Source: Streptomyces sp. ISL-96
GTDB lineage: Bacteria > Actinomycetota > Actinomycetes > Streptomycetales > Streptomycetaceae
DNA length: 64,000 nt
Assembly (NCBI RefSeq): GCF_018614035.1
Contig: NZ_JAGGPA010000009.1
Location: 62,001 to 126,000 of the forward strand
Reading direction: 5' to 3'
Notes under the pieces: model-generated
Told to the model about the DNA's origin: nothing
Seen by the model: only the letters and a program-made list of their open reading frames with translations
Database searches by the model: none
Made by a program: the position numbers and the translations under genes
In this document: piece after piece, positions 12,325 through 37,331 of the stretch
Position numbering within the stretch: position 1 is the first letter of the stretch
How the letters are laid out: every line of letters begins with the position of its first letter

Positions 12325-12411
12325 TCACCCCCGGTACCGCACCCGGTGTTCCGCCAGGTGCGCCAGCACCGCGTGATTCGCCTCCCACCCCTCAGATTCC
12401 AAGATCACCAT
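12325..12411 (-). pseudogene. Displaced old 3' end of the helicase gene
   Basis: Reading the minus strand, a short frame ends EGWEANHAVLAHLAEHRVRYRG and TGA. The intact helicase gene 3 kb to the right ends DGWDAMMTTWEHLSNHRVRWRP. Over 21 aligned residues from Gly-Trp about ten are identical, including GW, HL and HRVR.R near the stop. The fragment lies on the correct strand and at the downstream side of the helicase. The simplest reading is that an element inserted into the last codons of the helicase gene, supplied a new end, and pushed the original end here. Confidence 0.65.
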
Positions 12412-12589
12412 GTAGCCTCGAAGGAGACCAGTACATAGGGGGAACGACATGCCGTACAAGCCGTCACCTGGGGGGCGCCATGAGAAGCGGAAACCCGTAC
12501 AGGGGTGAAGGATGGCTCCCCTGCGGTCCATGTCGCTTTGAACTCAGGGTGTTACCCCCGTGGTGCACGGAGCGTGACCAGCGGGGGGC

Positions 12590-12710
12590 GTCTCGAAAAC
12601 CATGGTTAATGAGACGTCTCGGTGATGGCCGCCAGAGTGCTCCAGGGGTGTCCAAAACCCGTCTCGAAACATGCTCCAGGCTCTTGAGATTCTGAGACGA
12701 GTTATGAGAC
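12590..12710. promoter_or_regulatory. Cluster of GTCTC/GAGAC motifs, candidate recombinase site
   Basis: Six copies of GTCTC or its complement lie at 12590, 12611, 12616, 12661, 12694 and 12706, ending ten bases before the recombinase start. Two copies are extended (GTCTCGAAAAC and GTCTCGAAAC), and 12589-12616 forms an imperfect palindrome around CATG. Resolvases bind repeated half-sites next to their own gene, so this is a candidate res-like site. Confidence 0.45.
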
Positions 12711-12719
12711 TGTCTGGAT

Positions 12720-13307
12720 ATGACGAAGGCTTCAACGGCAACAGGTCACTTGATCGGGTATGCCAGGGTCTCCACCGATGCCCAGGAAGCGCAGCTACAG
12801 CTCGATGCGCTGGACGCTGCGGGATGCTCCCGGATCTTCATCGACAAGGCCTCGGGCAAGAGCATGGAGCGGCCGGAACTCAAGGCGGCCTTGGACTACC
12901 TCAGGGGCGGAGACTCGCTCTGCGTGTGGAAGCTGGACCGCTTCGCACGTTCCCTCATCGACCTGGTGGGGGTGGTGGACCAGCTTGCCCAACGGGGCAT
13001 TGGCTTCAAGGTGTTGACCGGTGCACTGGCCAACATCGACCCGAACACCCCGGACGGCCGCCTCATGCTCCAAGTCATCGGAGCCATGGCGGAGTTCGAG
13101 CGGGCACTCATTCGAGAGCGCACCAAGGCCGGACTGGAAGCGGCCAAGGCGCAGGGGCGAACTGGAGGGCGGCCCGCGGTCATCACTGATGACATGCTCA
13201 CGGTGGCCAAGGCCCGGAAGGCCAAGGGTGAGAGCGTAAGTGCCATCGCCAAGGCTCTCGGAGTCTCAAGGGCCACCCTGTATCGGTACCTCGATGAGAG
13301 CGGCTGA
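12720..13307 (+). CDS. Serine recombinase (resolvase/invertase family)
   Basis: 195 residues, the usual length of a small resolvase/invertase. The catalytic serine is Ser18 in YARVSTDAQ. Conserved segments follow: SGKSMERPELKAAL, VWKLDRFARSLIDL, GALANIDPNTPDGRLMLQVIGAMAEFERALIRERTKAGL. The C-terminal helix-turn-helix is SVSAIAKALGVSRATLYRYL. Such enzymes cut and rejoin DNA through a phosphoserine bond. They normally resolve or invert; integration by this size class is known mainly for IS607-type enzymes, so whether it moved the surrounding element is open. The ATG at 12720 lies directly behind the GAGAC cluster. Confidence 0.93.
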   Translation: MTKASTATGHLIGYARVSTDAQEAQLQLDALDAAGCSRIFIDKASGKSMERPELKAALDYLRGGDSLCVWKLDRFARSLIDLVGVVDQLAQRGIGFKVLTGALANIDPNTPDGRLMLQVIGAMAEFERALIRERTKAGLEAAKAQGRTGGRPAVITDDMLTVAKARKAKGESVSAIAKALGVSRATLYRYLDESG

Positions 13308-13528
13308 GATGGGCGCACAGCGACGGGCGGGCCACACCAGTGGACGGGGTACGGCTACCCCTTCACTCCGACTTGTCCGATCGGGGGACGCGTAGCCCGC
13401 TCCCATCGCGTCGCGCCGACTCGATCACGGGAGAGCGGGAGTTCTTCGGGTGCTGGTTTTGGGGGAGCAACTTCCGCAGGGACTCGGGGATCATCGGGGT
13501 AATAACGTGGAACACGGCCGACCCTTTC

Positions 13529-13714
13529 CTAGTCGGGGCAATCGGTGGCGTGTCGGTAGACGACTGTGGGCGGTCCGGACGTGCGCTGATGTTCGCAACG
13601 ACGTACCGGCTCAAGCTGTTTGATCACCTTCCGGCACGCGGAGCACCGGCTTTTGGCAGGTGCGTACGTGACGTACTCATAGGTGTCTTCGCTGGCTTTC
13701 GTAGTGCTCGCCAT
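13529..13714 (-). CDS. Small cysteine-rich (zinc-ribbon-like) protein
   Basis: 61 residues from ATG 13714, with GGGGAGG about eight bases upstream. Four cysteines and two histidines occur in SRCSACRKV, RRCEHQR and YRHATDCPD, consistent with a small metal-binding fold. It follows the XRE gene on the same strand with a 61-base gap and is likely the last member of that cassette. Function unknown. Confidence 0.65.
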   Translation of the reverse strand: MASTTKASEDTYEYVTYAPAKSRCSACRKVIKQLEPVRRCEHQRTSGPPTVVYRHATDCPD

Positions 13715-13775
13715 TGCGTGGGCCTCCCCGGCTTGTCTCTCCGGGGTCCATCGTGGGACCGGGATTGAACTGCGC

Positions 13776-14606
13776 CTAGCTGCTTTCCTGTTGAGGCAAG
13801 TACCCATCTCGGATGGAATCCACCAGGGTCCGCATCGGGTCTCCGTGCAACGCGACAGAGGAGAACCGTTCGAAGGTGTCGACGTAGGTCTGTACGTCTT
13901 TCGGGTCGCGGGTGGTGATCTCGGAGTGGAACGTTTCCACGATCACCAGCCGGTCGTCGTGCAGGCTGAAGCACGTCATGGGGAAGTCAGGCATCCGGCC
14001 CGCCAGGGGAACAACTCCCATGGCCACGTTGGGGAGTCGAGAGAACGAAACCAGTCGGTCCAGCTGTAGCGCCATGATCAGAGGCTCACTGATCAGCCAC
14101 CGGAGAACGTGCTCACAGATCAGGAAGTGGAACGACCGGTCAGGGTCGTACAGGGCTGCCTGCCGCTCCAGGCGGGCAGCGACGGTCTTGACCCGCGTCT
14201 CATCCGGCAAGGCCGGGGGCAGGCTGAAGACGGCATTGGCGTACTCGGGTGTCTGAAGTAGGCCAGGGATGAGCTGTCCCTGGAAGAGCCTGAGCGCGCT
14301 GGTGCTGGCTTCAATGGCTTGGATGGTCTTCTGGTGCTTCCACGGGCCCATGCGGCGAAGCAGGCGCCACGCTGTCGCTTCTGTGGCTTCCGTGCGAGCA
14401 GTGGCCAGGAACTGTTCCTTCGCCTCAGCCGAGATGCCGAGCGCGGTCAGGATGAGGTCGACGTCTTGGACGGTCGGCCGTACCTTGCCTGTTTCGAGCT
14501 TGGACAGCTTGCCGGCGGACATGGAGGCCCTGCGGGCGACTACGTCACCGGTGAGTCCCGATGCTTCTCGCAGTGTCCGTAGGGCTGTCCCCAGTGATTC
14601 CGTCAA
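13776..14606 (-). CDS. XRE-family regulator with DUF5753 domain
   Basis: 276 residues. The N-terminal helix-turn-helix is about residues 5-60 (LREASGLTGDVVARRASMSAGKLSKLETGK). The remainder is the DUF5753 domain, marked by FQGQLIPGLLQTPEYA around 110-125 and the long C-terminal helix region. These proteins, related to WhiJ and Scr1, typically pair with a small partner protein (DUF397 or DUF6879) in a regulator module that affects development or antibiotic output. Start overlaps the preceding DUF6879 stop as ATGA, so stoichiometric co-production is expected. Confidence 0.88.
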   Translation of the reverse strand: MTESLGTALRTLREASGLTGDVVARRASMSAGKLSKLETGKVRPTVQDVDLILTALGISAEAKEQFLATARTEATEATAWRLLRRMGPWKHQKTIQAIEASTSALRLFQGQLIPGLLQTPEYANAVFSLPPALPDETRVKTVAARLERQAALYDPDRSFHFLICEHVLRWLISEPLIMALQLDRLVSFSRLPNVAMGVVPLAGRMPDFPMTCFSLHDDRLVIVETFHSEITTRDPKDVQTYVDTFERFSSVALHGDPMRTLVDSIRDGYLPQQESS

Positions 14607-15136
14607 GGTTGCGGCGCTCCCCCTCCCGCGTGGTGCCGCTCCCAGTAGTTCGCGAACGGCACAGCAGCGGCCAGGGCCCGGTCGCGGTACTCCTGGTACT
14701 CGGGAAGCCGCTCCGGGGGCAGCAGCTCGCCACCGATGAATGCCCCGGCTTCGGTGTAGTGCATCCGGTAGACCGCTGTGTCGTCGAAGAGCCAGAAGTC
14801 ATGGTCAGGGAGCCCTGTGACCGGCTGCTCTGTCTGGTCGATGATCCCGATGGACTCACCGGCCTTGATGTTGCCCGGATATGCGGCCAGCTCATACCGC
14901 AGGTAGTCCGTGAGCGGTGATTGTAGGACGTGCACGCGTGCCACGTGCTTGCCCTTGTCGGTCATGGACCGCACCCAAGGGTTGTCAGTCCACTCAGGGC
15001 CCATGCCCTCACCCGCGAGGAACCGCGCGATCTCCTCGCGTTCCTCCTCCACGTCGTACTCGTCCAAGGTCTCCAGTCGGAACGCTGTCCGCTCGAAGGT
15101 GTCGAAAAGGGCCCCGAATTCTTCACCGCTGAGCAT
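14603..15136 (-). CDS. DUF6879-family partner protein
   Basis: 177 residues from ATG 15136 (MLSGEEFGALFDTFERTAFRLETL), which is the typical beginning of this family; a longer frame to 15256 reads out of the neighbouring gene. Conserved features are the opening FERTAFRLETLDEY, WTDNPWVRSM, GKHVARVHVLQSPLTDYLRYEL and DFWLFDD. The family accompanies XRE-DUF5753 proteins in Streptomyces; its biochemical role is not established. It sits in the middle of a three-gene overlapping unit. Confidence 0.72.
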   Translation of the reverse strand: MLSGEEFGALFDTFERTAFRLETLDEYDVEEEREEIARFLAGEGMGPEWTDNPWVRSMTDKGKHVARVHVLQSPLTDYLRYELAAYPGNIKAGESIGIIDQTEQPVTGLPDHDFWLFDDTAVYRMHYTEAGAFIGGELLPPERLPEYQEYRDRALAAAVPFANYWERHHAGGGAPQP

Positions 15137-15341
15137 TGGCGAAGTACTCCTCAAGCACTGCGGCAGGGACGTGTACTGCGGTCTCCCCTTCGGGCAAGTC
15201 CATCTGCGCCAGTTCGGCAGGGTCAGTGACCACGTAGCCCTGCACCACGTAGTCACCGTTCGCGGTCTTGGTCCACAGGGTCGGGCATGTGCCGTTCTTA
15301 CAGGACGGGTCTCCGGACAGCTTCCGCAGCGGCTCAGTCAT
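15123..15341 (-). CDS. Small protein, first gene of the XRE/DUF6879 cassette
   Basis: 72 residues from ATG 15341. It contains Cys residues in PSCKNGTCPTLW and a TDPAELAQMDLPEGETAVHVP segment often found beside DUF6879 genes. Its end overlaps the DUF6879 start by 14 bases. Probably expressed as one mRNA with the next two genes. Function unknown; it may be the effector or a stabilising partner of the cassette. Confidence 0.7.
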   Translation of the reverse strand: MTEPLRKLSGDPSCKNGTCPTLWTKTANGDYVVQGYVVTDPAELAQMDLPEGETAVHVPAAVLEEYFANAQR

Positions 15342-15446
15342 CGTGACGTCCCCTCATGTCGTCGGATGCGTTCGATGCTTCCGACCGGGTGGGAGCAAGG
15401 TCAAGGCCCTGAGCTTTCCAGAACGGGAAACCCCGGAGGGCTCAGG

Positions 15447-16802
15447 TCAAGGCCGCCACCGAACGCGGTGGTTGGACAGGTGTTCCCACGTGGTCATCAT
15501 TGCGTCCCACCCGTCGGGGAACTTGACCGTGACGCCAAGCTGCACCGGCTCCGTCGACGGATGCTCGTCCAGCAGATCCGCCACCCCCTCCCGGCACACC
15601 ACCACACACGCGTGCCGATGCCGCGAAGCCAGCACGCACAGCCGCCCCGTCTCCAGATGGAACGCCGTCGCGTCCGGCCGCCCCGACAGCGGGTGCAGCA
15701 CCACCGTTACGTCGAACTCGCGCCCCTGGAGCCGGTTCGCCGTATCGACCGCGACGCCCACCACACCGAGGTCCGCCAGCGCCGCCCGGACCGCCGCCGC
15801 CTGGTCGCGGTGGGCCGTGCCGACCGCGATGCGGTCCGCCGTCAGCGGGACCGGGTCGGGGGAGCGCTCGCTGACCGCCGCGCCGCCCCGGTCCAGGAGG
15901 CGGCGTACGACCTGAGCCACCGCCCGCACCGCCTCCGGGTCCGTACGCGGGGTGTGCCGGGCGGGAAGCTCCAGCAGTCCCCAGCCCGAGGCGGCCGCCT
16001 CGTCCAGCACCCGGTCGGGCCCGGAGCCGTCGGAGGCGACCCCGAAACTGAGCCGCCGGTCGCCGTGGCCCGTACCGCTGCGGAAGGGCGTGTACGGATA
16101 GAACGCGTCCGAGACCAGCGGCGCGGCCGACGCCGGGAGCCGCCAGGACACGGGCAGGCGGTGCTGCGGCAGCTCGGGGTTGTGGGCCAGCAGGGTCGAG
16201 ACCGCGCTGGCCGACGGGTCGTACGACAGCCCCGCCCACTGGTCGGCGCCGACGATCGAGAACGGGTCCAGCTGCCCCGGATCGCCGACGAACAGCGCCC
16301 GCTCGAACAGCCCGGCCACCGCGAGCAGCGCGTCCGAACGCATCTGGTACGCCTCGTCGACGATCGCGTGCGTCCACGGGTCCGTGGTCTTCACGTGCGC
16401 CCACTTCGCGGCCGTCGAGATGACGATGTCCAGGCCCGCCAGGTCCCCCGCCTTCGCGGATTTCCGTACGTTCGCCAGGTCGTCCAGGGCCTTGTCGTAC
16501 GGGTCGGTGTCATTGCTGTGGAGGCGGCCGACCGGGAGGTCCGGTTCCTTCTCCGCGAGCCGCAGCACCAGGTCGTCGACCTGGGCGTTCGTCTGCGCGA
16601 TCACCATCAAGGGGCGGCCCGCGGCGGCCAGTTCGAGCGCGGCCCGCACCACGAGCGTCGACTTGCCCGCGCCGGGCGGCGAGTCCACGACGACGCCGCG
16701 GTGCGCGCCGTGCAGCGTGTCGTGGAGGATCGCGGCGGTCGCGCGGCCGGCCTCGGCGCCAGGGTCGAAGCGCGGCGCCCCGGCAGGGAGGGGACGGTTC
16801 AC
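15447..16802 (-). CDS. SF1-type DNA/RNA helicase-like ATPase
   Basis: 451 residues. Walker A GAGKST lies at 44-49, motif II DEAYQ at 149-153, motif III GDPGQLDP at 173-180, motif IV-like SWRLPASAAP, and motif V/VI in VDTANRLQGREFDVTVVLHPL and ASRHRHACVVV. This is the minimal Upf1/Dna2-like SF1 core with no accessory domains. Start ATG 16802 overlaps the 532-residue gene by four bases (ATGA). Its last about 20 codons were probably provided by an inserted element (see the displaced end at 12325). With the upstream Fe-S nuclease and unknown protein it forms a tight operon. Confidence 0.85.
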   Translation of the reverse strand: MNRPLPAGAPRFDPGAEAGRATAAILHDTLHGAHRGVVVDSPPGAGKSTLVVRAALELAAAGRPLMVIAQTNAQVDDLVLRLAEKEPDLPVGRLHSNDTDPYDKALDDLANVRKSAKAGDLAGLDIVISTAAKWAHVKTTDPWTHAIVDEAYQMRSDALLAVAGLFERALFVGDPGQLDPFSIVGADQWAGLSYDPSASAVSTLLAHNPELPQHRLPVSWRLPASAAPLVSDAFYPYTPFRSGTGHGDRRLSFGVASDGSGPDRVLDEAAASGWGLLELPARHTPRTDPEAVRAVAQVVRRLLDRGGAAVSERSPDPVPLTADRIAVGTAHRDQAAAVRAALADLGVVGVAVDTANRLQGREFDVTVVLHPLSGRPDATAFHLETGRLCVLASRHRHACVVVCREGVADLLDEHPSTEPVQLGVTVKFPDGWDAMMTTWEHLSNHRVRWRP

Positions 16803-18397
16803 AGGATGTCCTCCGTCGTCACCGGGTCGGGATGTTCCGTGCCCGCGCCCGGGGGGCCGCCGTGCGTCCAGGGGGTCGCTTCCGGATCCGGCAGCTGCGG
16901 GCCACCGCGCTGGTCGTGCTCGAAGAGCGTCCAGCAGATCCGCTCGCCCTTCTCCGGCACGGAACCGGGCGCCGGCTCCTTGCCGCGGCCCATCTTGTCG
17001 GTCACCCGCAGCACCAGGACGCCGGTCTCGTCCTCGTACCGTACGAACTCAGCGGTCTGCGGCCTGCCGTCCAGCGAGCGGTAGACCTTTGTGCGCTCCA
17101 CGGCGAGGTGCGGGGCGTCGTCCGTGCGGACGGTGACCAGCGGTCGGGGGCTCGGACGCTTGCCCTCGCTCATGGTCATCACCACGTCCAGGACCTCGCT
17201 GGTGAACGCCTCGCCCGCGAGCCGCCGGCCGGCCATCACCAGCGGATCGTCGAGCGCCTCCTGCGCCTCCAGTTGCGCCTGTGCGCTCTCGCGGGAGGCG
17301 AGCTTCTGCGCGGCGGTCACCGCGTCGTCGCGCCGGGGCTGCGGCGGCTCGCCGGCCCGTACGCGGTCGCGGTGGCCGGTGTACGACCAGCGGTCGCGCG
17401 TCCAGCGGTCCGTGGCCCGCGTCCCCTCCGGCAGCTCCCGCAGCAGGTCGAGCCCGCGCCACACGGCGTTCCAGGTGGGCAGCATCTGATCGTGGAGCAG
17501 GTGACGGATGTGCCGTTCGGCGGCAGTCAGTTCACCCAGGTGCGCGTCCGCCGCGAGGCCGTCCTCGGCGGCGGCGAGCGCCTTGCGGGCGCGGTCGTAA
17601 CGGTCGATGGCGGGCGCCAGCAGCTTGTTGTCGAACGCCGGGTCGGTCGCGGGGCCGGCCGGCGGGCACACCAACTGTCCGTCCCGGTCCCGCTCCAGCT
17701 CCGCCCGCAGCGCCGCGTCGGCGCCGGACTCGCACTGCGAATTCTCCGGGTCGATCCACGCCAGCAGCGCGCCCAGATGCTGGTCCTCCAGGTTGGACTG
17801 CCCGGTCGCCCAGTGCCGGCCCAGCAGATCGGTCGCCGCGAGGAGGAGCGAGGAACCGGGCACCCGGGCGCGCTCGCCGTAGTGCGTCAGCCAGCGGCCG
17901 AGCAGCGGGATGTGCGGCGGCGCGGGGTAGGGGGTGTCCGGATCCTGCTCGGCCGTACGCCGGAATCGCATGGAACGCCCGAGGAGCCGTACGTACTCGA
18001 TGCCCGCCCGGCTCGGCACGATCAACTGCGGTGCGTCCGCGCACAGTTCGACCTCGACCTTGACCCGCTTGCCGGTCTCGGGGTCGGTCTCGTTGCGTTC
18101 CGCCGCCTCGACGTCGTCGGCGTACCCGTCGATGTACGGCAGGACGGTCTCGGCCAGCTCCGCGAGAAACGCGAACCGCAGGTCGCGGTCGCGGGGCTGC
18201 GTCACGGCGAGCAGTCGCGGGGCGTCCCGGTCGGTGCCGACGAGCGCGCCGAGCGGCGCGCCGGCCTCGCCCGCGGTGGTCAGCGGGACGAAGACCATCG
18301 GCCGCTCGGACAGGTGCCGGTGGCGGACGGTGGCCAGGGCCTGTGCGCGGCCGCTGCGGACGGCGTCGAGCCGGGCGAGGGTGCTGATCAGCGACAT
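16799..18397 (-). CDS. Conserved protein of unknown function in helicase/nuclease operon, 532 aa
   Basis: 532 residues, ATG 18397. No signal peptide or membrane span. The N-terminal part (RPMVFVPLTTAGEAGAPLGALVGTD; RFAFLAELAETVLPYI) is globular. A helical, acidic middle (about 255-330) contains HIRHLLHDQMLPTWNAVWRGLDLLRELP. The C-terminal part (about 380-515) has beta-rich segments such as KVYRSLDGRPQTAEFVRYEDETGVLVLRV. No known domain was recognised. The fixed pairing with a helicase and a nuclease suggests it is a structural or DNA-recognition subunit; that is inference. Confidence 0.78.
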   Translation of the reverse strand: MSLISTLARLDAVRSGRAQALATVRHRHLSERPMVFVPLTTAGEAGAPLGALVGTDRDAPRLLAVTQPRDRDLRFAFLAELAETVLPYIDGYADDVEAAERNETDPETGKRVKVEVELCADAPQLIVPSRAGIEYVRLLGRSMRFRRTAEQDPDTPYPAPPHIPLLGRWLTHYGERARVPGSSLLLAATDLLGRHWATGQSNLEDQHLGALLAWIDPENSQCESGADAALRAELERDRDGQLVCPPAGPATDPAFDNKLLAPAIDRYDRARKALAAAEDGLAADAHLGELTAAERHIRHLLHDQMLPTWNAVWRGLDLLRELPEGTRATDRWTRDRWSYTGHRDRVRAGEPPQPRRDDAVTAAQKLASRESAQAQLEAQEALDDPLVMAGRRLAGEAFTSEVLDVVMTMSEGKRPSPRPLVTVRTDDAPHLAVERTKVYRSLDGRPQTAEFVRYEDETGVLVLRVTDKMGRGKEPAPGSVPEKGERICWTLFEHDQRGGPQLPDPEATPWTHGGPPGAGTEHPDPVTTEDIL

Positions 18398-36482: not shown

Positions 36483-37331
36483 TCAGCCCTTGACCGCGCC
36501 CTGCATGATCCCGCCCACGATCTGCCTCCCGAACAGCACGAAAGCCAGCAGCAGCGGCAGCGTGCCGAGCAGCGCGCCGGCCATGATGACCGACTGGTCC
36601 GGGACGAATCCCTGGCCGAGGTTGGCGAGCGCCACCTGCACGGTCGGGTTGTCCTGGGTGAGGGCGATGATCGGCCAGAAGAAGTCGTTCCAGGCGGCCA
36701 CGAACGTGAGCATGCCCAGTACCGCCATAGCCGGTCGCGCGGCCGGGAAGACGATGTGCCAGATGACGCGAAGACTGCTCGCGCCGTCCACCCGCGCCGC
36801 CTCGACCAGTTCGCTGGGCAGCGCCTGCACCAGGTACTGGCGCATGAAGAAGACCCCGAAGGCGCTGACGAGAGTCGGCAGGATGACGGCCTGGAGCTGG
36901 TCGGTCCACTCCAGCTCCGCGACCGTCATGAACAGGGGTACGACGCTGAGCTGCGGCGGCACCATCATCGTGGCCACGACCAGCAGCATCAGCAGGTTCT
37001 TGAAGCGGAAGCGGAGCTTGGCGAACGCGAAGCCCGCGAGGGTCGAGAAGAGCACCGTACCCAGCGCGATCGTCCCGGCCACCACCGCCGTATTGAGCAG
37101 CGCCAGTCCCATGTTGGCGTCGGTCCAGGCCGTCTGGAGATTTTTGAAGAGGTTGCTGCCGAACCAGAACGGCGGCGGCGTCTGTGACAGCCGGGTGCTG
37201 TTGCGGGAGGCCGCGATCGCCGTCCACACAAGGGGGAAGAGCGACCCGACCGTGAAGATGATCAGCACGGCGTAGGTGAGGGGGCCGCCGTGCAGATGGC
37301 GGCCGGCGCGAGTACGCAATGTATTCGTCAA
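36483..37331 (-). CDS. cebG: Cellobiose ABC transporter permease (MalG type)
   Basis: 282 residues, six membrane segments beginning [21 protein letters not shown]. The cytoplasmic coupling loop [25 protein letters not shown] is the EAA motif near residue 190. CUT1 MalG class. Start overlaps the previous stop by four bases. The transporter needs an ATPase; none is in the window, and Streptomyces use the shared MsiK, so this is expected. Confidence 0.93.

Follow-up and report, generated by a model that had tools for sequence, protein, structure and literature searches.

We analysed a window of 64,000 nucleotides from Streptomyces sp. ISL-96 (contig NZ_JAGGPA010000009.1, positions 62,001 to 126,000; coordinates below count from the first letter of the window), in which a superfamily 1 (SF1)-type helicase gene is followed by a segment of DNA flanked by two similar coding tails. 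This segment is very probably an integrative element that a large serine integrase is likely to have placed at the GG of a Gly codon 21 codons from the helicase end, with the right end of the element supplying a look-alike tail for the protein. Sequence comparison shows empty sites in relatives, two junctions, an 8-bp core, a displaced tail and, in its place, a tail of equal length; other occupied loci combine this type of tail with a large serine integrase, whose gene has been lost from the copy in the window (Table 1).

The helicase gene (15447-16802) ends in GWDAMMTTWEHLSNHRVRWRP and a stop codon (15447-15512). A second tail, GWEANHAVLAHLAEHRVRYRG, lies 3.1 kb beyond the helicase end without a gene body; it closes a minus-strand open reading frame (ORF, 12325-12531) that ends in SEGWEANHAVLAHLAEHRVRYRG and a stop, of which the part from GW onwards occupies 12325-12390. 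Between the tails, the element of about 3.1 kb encodes a small serine recombinase, an XRE/DUF5753 regulator, a DUF6879 protein and a 72-aa ORF. Present and displaced tails are identical at 10 of 21 residues, and the score of codons 9-21 of the present tail against the native tail was reached by 1 of 71,034 background windows from five element loci, a background that still includes the displaced native tails of some loci. On sequence grounds the likeness is not a matter of chance, because the helicase of the closest relative (genome G085, helicase 96% identical to that of the window) ends in exactly the displaced 21 residues.

The site in G085 is empty: the helicase ends in these residues, at 65 of 66 nt identical to the displaced tail, and the gene for a 113-aa protein follows 161 nt later. 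G114, the other of the two nearest relatives, is also empty. Both junctions and G085 have in common an 8-bp core, GGGTGGGA on the helicase strand and TCCCACCC on the plus strand, beyond which window and G085 diverge. The original prediction, made from the window alone, had noticed the resemblance of the tails (about ten of 21 residues) and the serine recombinase and XRE/DUF6879 cassette between them, to which we add the 72-aa ORF. It had proposed that an element entered the 3′ end of a coding sequence site-specifically and brought its own substitute for the tail, to be checked against an empty site in relatives whose helicase ends in the displaced tail. The empty sites, the junctions and the displaced tail bear this out, and the shared core, as now defined, has the letters that it had given.

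Table 1. Features of the helicase locus and of the element inserted there (window coordinates, or loci where these are named).
Feature	Location	Strand	Notes
Conserved downstream neighbour, 113 aa	11842..12183	-	start corresponds to 161 nt past the helicase stop in empty G085
Displaced original helicase 3′ end, GWEANHAVLAHLAEHRVRYRG and stop	12325..12390	-	same as the empty site of G085
Predicted attL, ~50 bp round GG at 12389-12390	12365..12414	-	element half ATCACCATGTAG on + is the P arm
Remnant of large serine integrase gene, first ~8 codons (MPYKPSPG)	12449..12471	+	match to G025 element
Res-like site of small recombinase	12590..12713	+	site I and further half-sites upstream of the gene
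Small serine recombinase, 195 aa, Resolvase (12-147) and HTH_7 (150-193)	12720..13307	+	family matches
XRE regulator with DUF5753 (cargo)	13776..14606	-	family match
DUF6879 protein (cargo)	14603..15139	-	family match
72-aa ORF upstream of DUF6879 (cargo)	15123..15341	-	30-41% relatives in other elements
Replacement helicase 3′ end, 21 codons and stop, element-supplied, GWDAMMTTWEHLSNHRVRWRP	15447..15512	-	absent from the two nearest relatives
SF1-type helicase gene (AAA_11/AAA_12), target gene	15447..16802	-	body 15513-16802
Predicted attR, ~50 bp round GG at 15511-15512	15487..15536	-	element half ATGATGACCACGTGG is the P′ arm, codes M-M-T-T-W
Tandem native 21-codon tails	L127, L132, L139, L160, L189, L206, L213, L214, L229 and others		at helicase 3′ ends

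The helicase was found in 282 of 295 genomes of the genus, and we surveyed its 3′ end in 148 of these, one locus each. The survey took the best-ranked rows together with G012 and G090, which joined it for carrying the integrase described below and both count among the replacement-tail loci; since the ranking favours query-like tails, the frequencies are not unbiased. It gave 132 native tails and 16 of the replacement type seen in the window. At position 5, all 132 native tails have N and all 16 replacement tails have M, with no third residue, and the tail measures 21 residues in 125/132 native and 16/16 replacement cases. The best 120 of 4,505 helicase proteins from a database search, likewise ranked by likeness to the query, comprised 28 replacement-type tails, 89 native tails and 3 other native-like tails. 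A displaced native tail stands at the far junction in six of the nine element-bearing loci (the window, G025, G077, G090, L155 and L158).

In G025, which is occupied at the same helicase site, a 552-aa large serine integrase lies directly beside the displaced tail. Relatives of this integrase at 66-100% identity occur in 4 of 295 genus genomes (G025, G012, G077, G090), all at the helicase and each with a replacement-type tail. The integrase was seen in none of the 132 native-tail loci within the stretch read; this was longer than 10 kb in 108 of them, between 1 and 10 kb in 21 and shorter than 1 kb in 3. In a separate scan of named genomes, all 5 integrase loci returned lay next to this helicase and had a replacement tail; among them are the G077 strain and a locus whose integrase is truncated. 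Large serine integrases are marked by Resolvase, Recombinase and zinc-ribbon domains; those recognised are Resolvase and Recombinase in G025, joined by Zn_ribbon in G077 and G090, some of them below the curated cut-off. A tyrosine integrase was set aside, given a core of only 8 bp and the large serine integrase in the occupied relatives; no systematic search for one was made.

We rebuilt the bacterial attachment site (attB) from the outer halves, and that of the element (attP) from the inner halves, of the four loci with both junctions. Within the scanned range, the best inverted-repeat centre is the same GG of the Gly codon in all four reconstructed attP sites, with a mean pairing of 0.54 at this centre against a mean of 0.26 (standard deviation 0.07) over all centres scanned; the attB sites have no shared inverted-repeat centre. 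The attP arms, read by eye, lie 11-22 bp from the centre, with ATGGTGATC on one side and GATGACCAC on the other, and the GATGACCAC arm doubles as the new-tail codons A-M-M-T-T-W. A short core, an attP symmetrical about the crossover dinucleotide and an integrase gene close to attP are marks of large serine integrase elements; here the integrase start is 60-70 nt from the core. We propose that recombination of attP and attB by a G025-type large serine integrase would insert the element at the helicase GG. The P′ arm would then serve both as integrase half-site and as coding tail, giving one DNA stretch a dual role, while selection on the remaining tail codons would keep the helicase working. 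The XRE/DUF6879 genes would ride as passengers.

The copy in the window has lost the integrase. Positions 12341-12471 match the G025 element over the displaced tail, the left arm and the first 8 integrase codons, and the match resumes beyond the integrase at 12490-13297 with the res region and the recombinase. Between these two stretches the window lacks about 1.9 kb that G025 has, running from integrase codon ~8 to past the stop. The genome of the window holds no match to the G025 integrase at E 1e-60. With the integrase gene deleted and no other match in the genome, this copy is likely a relic which would no longer move by itself.

The original prediction had attributed the insertion to the resolvase-sized recombinase, and this part has to be given up. 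That the 195-aa protein is itself the integrase, acting at the helicase core, has in its favour that it is the sole recombinase recognised in the element of the window, and that cleavage at a central dinucleotide is also a habit of resolvase-type enzymes. We regard it as highly improbable, for the protein has a res-like site of its own 200 bp inside the element. Site I is GTCTC-N16-GAGAC at 12590-12615, with further GTCTC/GAGAC half-sites, read by eye, at 12661, 12694 and 12706. A 26-bp site I of the same kind lies upstream of 23/23 recombinase genes compared, that of the window included, by a pattern made after reading the genes and with the 5′-cut genes L084 and L086 dropped. Of the 26 positions of site I, one junction agrees at 13 and the other at 12, no better than random 81-bp windows (median 12, 95% point 14). 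The small recombinase is absent from three of the four other occupied survey loci (G012, G077, G090), and 23 of its 24 best-scoring relatives, the window's own apart, lie in stretches without the helicase. Some large serine integrase is present in 20/24 of the relatives' stretches (~15 kb), compared with 0/109 native-tail helicase stretches (~12 kb).

The small recombinase looks like an accessory resolvase common to many serine-integrase elements, and would resolve dimers at its own res site. In L065-L088, a small resolvase and a res-like site stand beside very different large serine integrases, which, leaving aside that of G025 itself, are 25-67% identical to whichever of three query integrases is closest; this gives Streptomyces elements a module of two recombinases. 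Resolvase/res modules of the Tn3 family type consist of a small serine recombinase with a C-terminal helix-turn-helix and an adjacent multi-part inverted site. The module in the window resembles these in its small serine recombinase, C-terminal helix-turn-helix and adjacent inverted GTCTC/GAGAC half-sites, but differs in that it accompanies large serine integrase elements; no Tn3 transposase was found among the scanned proteins of the window's element, which was the one element scanned. In L085, a small recombinase of 62% identity has upstream repeats of ATTCC/GGAAC rather than GTCTC/GAGAC, possibly a change of half-site specificity.

Tandem tails are a feature of this locus in their own right. 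A further native-like tail follows 19 to 278 nt past the helicase stop in 21/113 native loci with a short gap and in four replacement-tail loci. The tandem units measure 85-175 bp where there are two copies, and L160 and L229 hold three tails. In most loci a conserved hairpin, seen by eye, ends in ACAGCCCGGAC right at the GG between tail copies; the motif occurs once per genome, at this locus, in three genomes tested, and three others are without it. The within-genome identity of the copies suggests that duplication or conversion has happened here more than once. These native tandems, with units of 85-171 bp apart from the two loci with three tails, lend something to the idea that the helicase 3′ end of the window was duplicated in tandem and the two tails then diverged, the cassette being caught between them by chance. 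However, in 17 of the 21 tandem loci the copies are identical at 54-63 of 63 nt, and the replacement tail forms a separate class, which holds an integrase half-site, coincides with the integrase in 4/4 loci and begins at a breakpoint that is the centre of attP symmetry; we consider such an origin very unlikely.

Over codons 9-21, beyond the integrase half-site, 14/16 replacement tails score against the native tail as at most 3 of the 71,034 background windows do, and replacement tails keep HRVxWRP in this part. For the HRVxWRP codons of 20 replacement tails, the mean entropy is 1.11 at third positions versus 0.43 at positions 1-2; the corresponding values in 125 native tails are 0.97 and 0.56. 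In a quick tree of the helicase end and neighbour gene (612 columns), the 16 replacement tails need 15 changes, in which gains and losses are indistinguishable, and 12 of the 16 have a native tail as their nearest row. Thus, third-position variation, tree changes and tail scores together suggest that the tail type changes repeatedly and then stays under protein-level constraint.

A second case comes from the phage phiJoe; its integrase and the one in G025 share 26% identity. Its record annotates attP at 36556-36605 with the crossover pair GG at 36580-36581; read from this pair on the other strand, the phage codes PQMDTWPQLAPPGGKMLPLTVRQGSDLRERP. The target, a SCO2606-like radical SAM gene, mostly ends in P-Q-M-D-T-x-I-Q-I-G-P-T-G-K-K-L-L-P-L-T-V and a few residues more. 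Outside the 50-bp attP, 8/15 residues of the phage mimic agree with the common native end, and its score of 46 (next 31) is reached by 1 of 95,912 windows in 48 kb of phage, the mimic alone. The phage-type DTWPQ end is found in four host genes: L276, L279 and L280, from the 9 of 20 integrase loci with the gene end in reach, and L306, from the 17 readable of 20 other ends. Mimicry of a host tail beside attP therefore appears, from these comparisons, to occur with two diverged serine integrases. In the window's own genome (G000), a phiJoe-type integrase match lies beside a radical SAM gene on contig C10:88796-92357 (L272, L301), and the end of that gene is native-like.

Several observations weigh against an element-supplied tail. 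The crossover at GG is predicted from symmetry only. No displaced tail was found in 3/9 element-bearing loci (G012, L154, L157), and the tail of G077 scores about equally near the native and the other reference (73 and 75). L173 and L226 stand barely above background over codons 9-21 (431 and 332 of 71,034). The gene end is native-like in 6/9 phiJoe-type loci, where either copy may have come with the element. Structure models of the helicase with either tail place a helix in the tail (430-443 and 433-446) at a mean predicted local distance difference test (pLDDT) score below 50; they were not used, as a common fold of the two tails cannot be read from models this weak. The original prediction had named, as speaking against insertion, relatives without the recombinase whose helicase has the W-type tail and which keep the second tail. 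Such relatives do exist in part, as four loci (L091, L149, L197, L228) with the second tail 60-109 nt after the first and attB-like letters before it, which may be scars or tandem-tail loci.

The integrase was also not seen in 11 of the 16 replacement-tail loci, the window apart, so the replacement tail may also spread by homologous exchange. Carried further, this would have replacement tails spreading between helicase genes by homologous exchange throughout, with the element inserted beside them later. We consider that sequence of events unlikely: the native tail stands at the far junction in 6/9 element loci, and hence the replacement tail came with the element there, and in phiJoe a tail of this kind is part of the phage's own genome.

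Taken together, it is likely that serine-integrase elements and phages repeatedly evolve a mimic of the host protein beside attP, with at least two diverged integrases and in two unrelated genes, the integrase half-site doubling as tail codons and the codons after it copying the C-terminus of the host protein, such that integration leaves the protein working, and that the helicase C-terminus has changed in this manner about 15 times across Streptomyces, the tail outlasting decay of the element.

We compared the element to known systems. The phiJoe/SCO2603-type elements likewise combine a large serine integrase and variable cargo with an attB close to where a conserved ORF ends (PMC5311408). 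There, attB lies 74 bp from the ORF end, crossover is at 5′-GG and some copies are reduced to recombination genes; the attP layout found here is that reported for phiJoe, 5′-GG included (PMC5311408). The authors assayed the integration system and remark only that the target may keep its function after insertion, and the part available to us mentions no replacement tail (PMC5311408). The target differs, being a radical SAM protein and not a helicase, as do the integrases, at the 26% identity given above. Bxb1 and other Int-S mycobacterial prophages also resemble the present case in their large serine integrase, core of 5-8 bp and attB inside an ORF (PMC9262239, PMC8092301). There, insertion is reported to disrupt the ORF, as in the inactivation of groEL1, and the accessible parts of these papers report no look-alike tail (PMC9262239, PMC8092301). 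For mycobacteria, the same sources describe large serine integrases as disrupting the ORF entered, the M. abscessus paper (PMC8092301) among them, and tyrosine integrases as rebuilding tRNA or gene ends (PMC8092301, PMC9262239). Tyrosine-integrase prophages at bifidobacterial dnaJ2 (PMC6109161) and at M. abscessus attB-8 (PMC8092301) are described as supplying a protein-gene 3′ end with the protein thought functional, as proposed here. The dnaJ2 phages differ in using a tyrosine integrase and a 35-bp core (PMC6109161); the element described here has an 8-bp core and a tail that resembles the displaced one at the protein level only.

A literature search, with most subscription papers outside it, returned no report of a serine-integrase attP beside a look-alike host tail. 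Serine integrases near ORF ends are thus known, as are element-supplied gene ends in prophages; the look-alike tail at a serine-integrase attP would be new. If this reading is true, insertion sites would be predictable by comparing attP-side codons with host C-termini, so that a hitherto unknown attB could be found from phage sequence alone, which would be useful for large serine integrases as a widely used class of genome-engineering tools. Mobile elements would, in addition, bring variation to the C-termini of conserved proteins time and again.

More distant integrases, at 40-43% identity (G118, G246, G051, G083), are in stretches without the helicase. In L117 and L119, such relatives start just past the 3′ end of an ORF, which we take to be Clp-like; no second copy of that ORF end lies within 17 kb, and it is perhaps another ORF-end target. 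At one distant (40-43%) integrase locus, the end of a neighbouring ORF, presumably dodecin-like, has a partial second copy.

A phage or plasmid copy of the element was set aside on the results of the following searches. IMG/VR held no relative of the integrase. In a phage collection, the best-scoring integrase is 30.5% identical to the G025 type and all 779 are below 60%; nothing there matched the whole element, and the tail query reached a best E of 4. The best 20 of 877 rows of a plasmid search cover at most 14% of the element query, nearly all over recombinase genes. Actinomycete integrative and conjugative elements (AICEs) are marked by Rep, Tra and tyrosine Int/Xis genes, and none of these was found among the scanned proteins of the window's element. 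A search of Rfam returned nothing, and PADLOC gave weak partial matches only.

Finally, other cargo is found at the same site. Elements of 11 kb lie between helicase and displaced tail in L116 (G090) and L114 (G077). The G090 element encodes a major head protein (phrog_267, 5.7e-42), a DUF3987 primase-like protein, an Lsr2-like protein, XRE/DUF5753 and DUF6879, and the G077 element resembles it by ORFs; both are possibly capsid-carrying phage satellites, a class marked by a major head protein of its own beside an integrase and a replication gene, in the absence of a full phage genome. The element of the window is without the head-protein satellite genes of G090. The gene order in fetched loci is a 532-aa gene, the helicase, the 113-aa gene and a 252-aa gene. 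The 532-aa gene (16799-18397 in the window), which is upstream of the helicase and adjoins it in fetched loci reaching that side, had no Pfam, NCBIfam or PADLOC match. In L101 (G240) and L215 (G044), an XRE/DUF6879/72-aa cassette lies downstream of a native helicase tail, with no match to the G025-type integrase or the small recombinase, and in L101 a broken copy of the tail follows the cassette.

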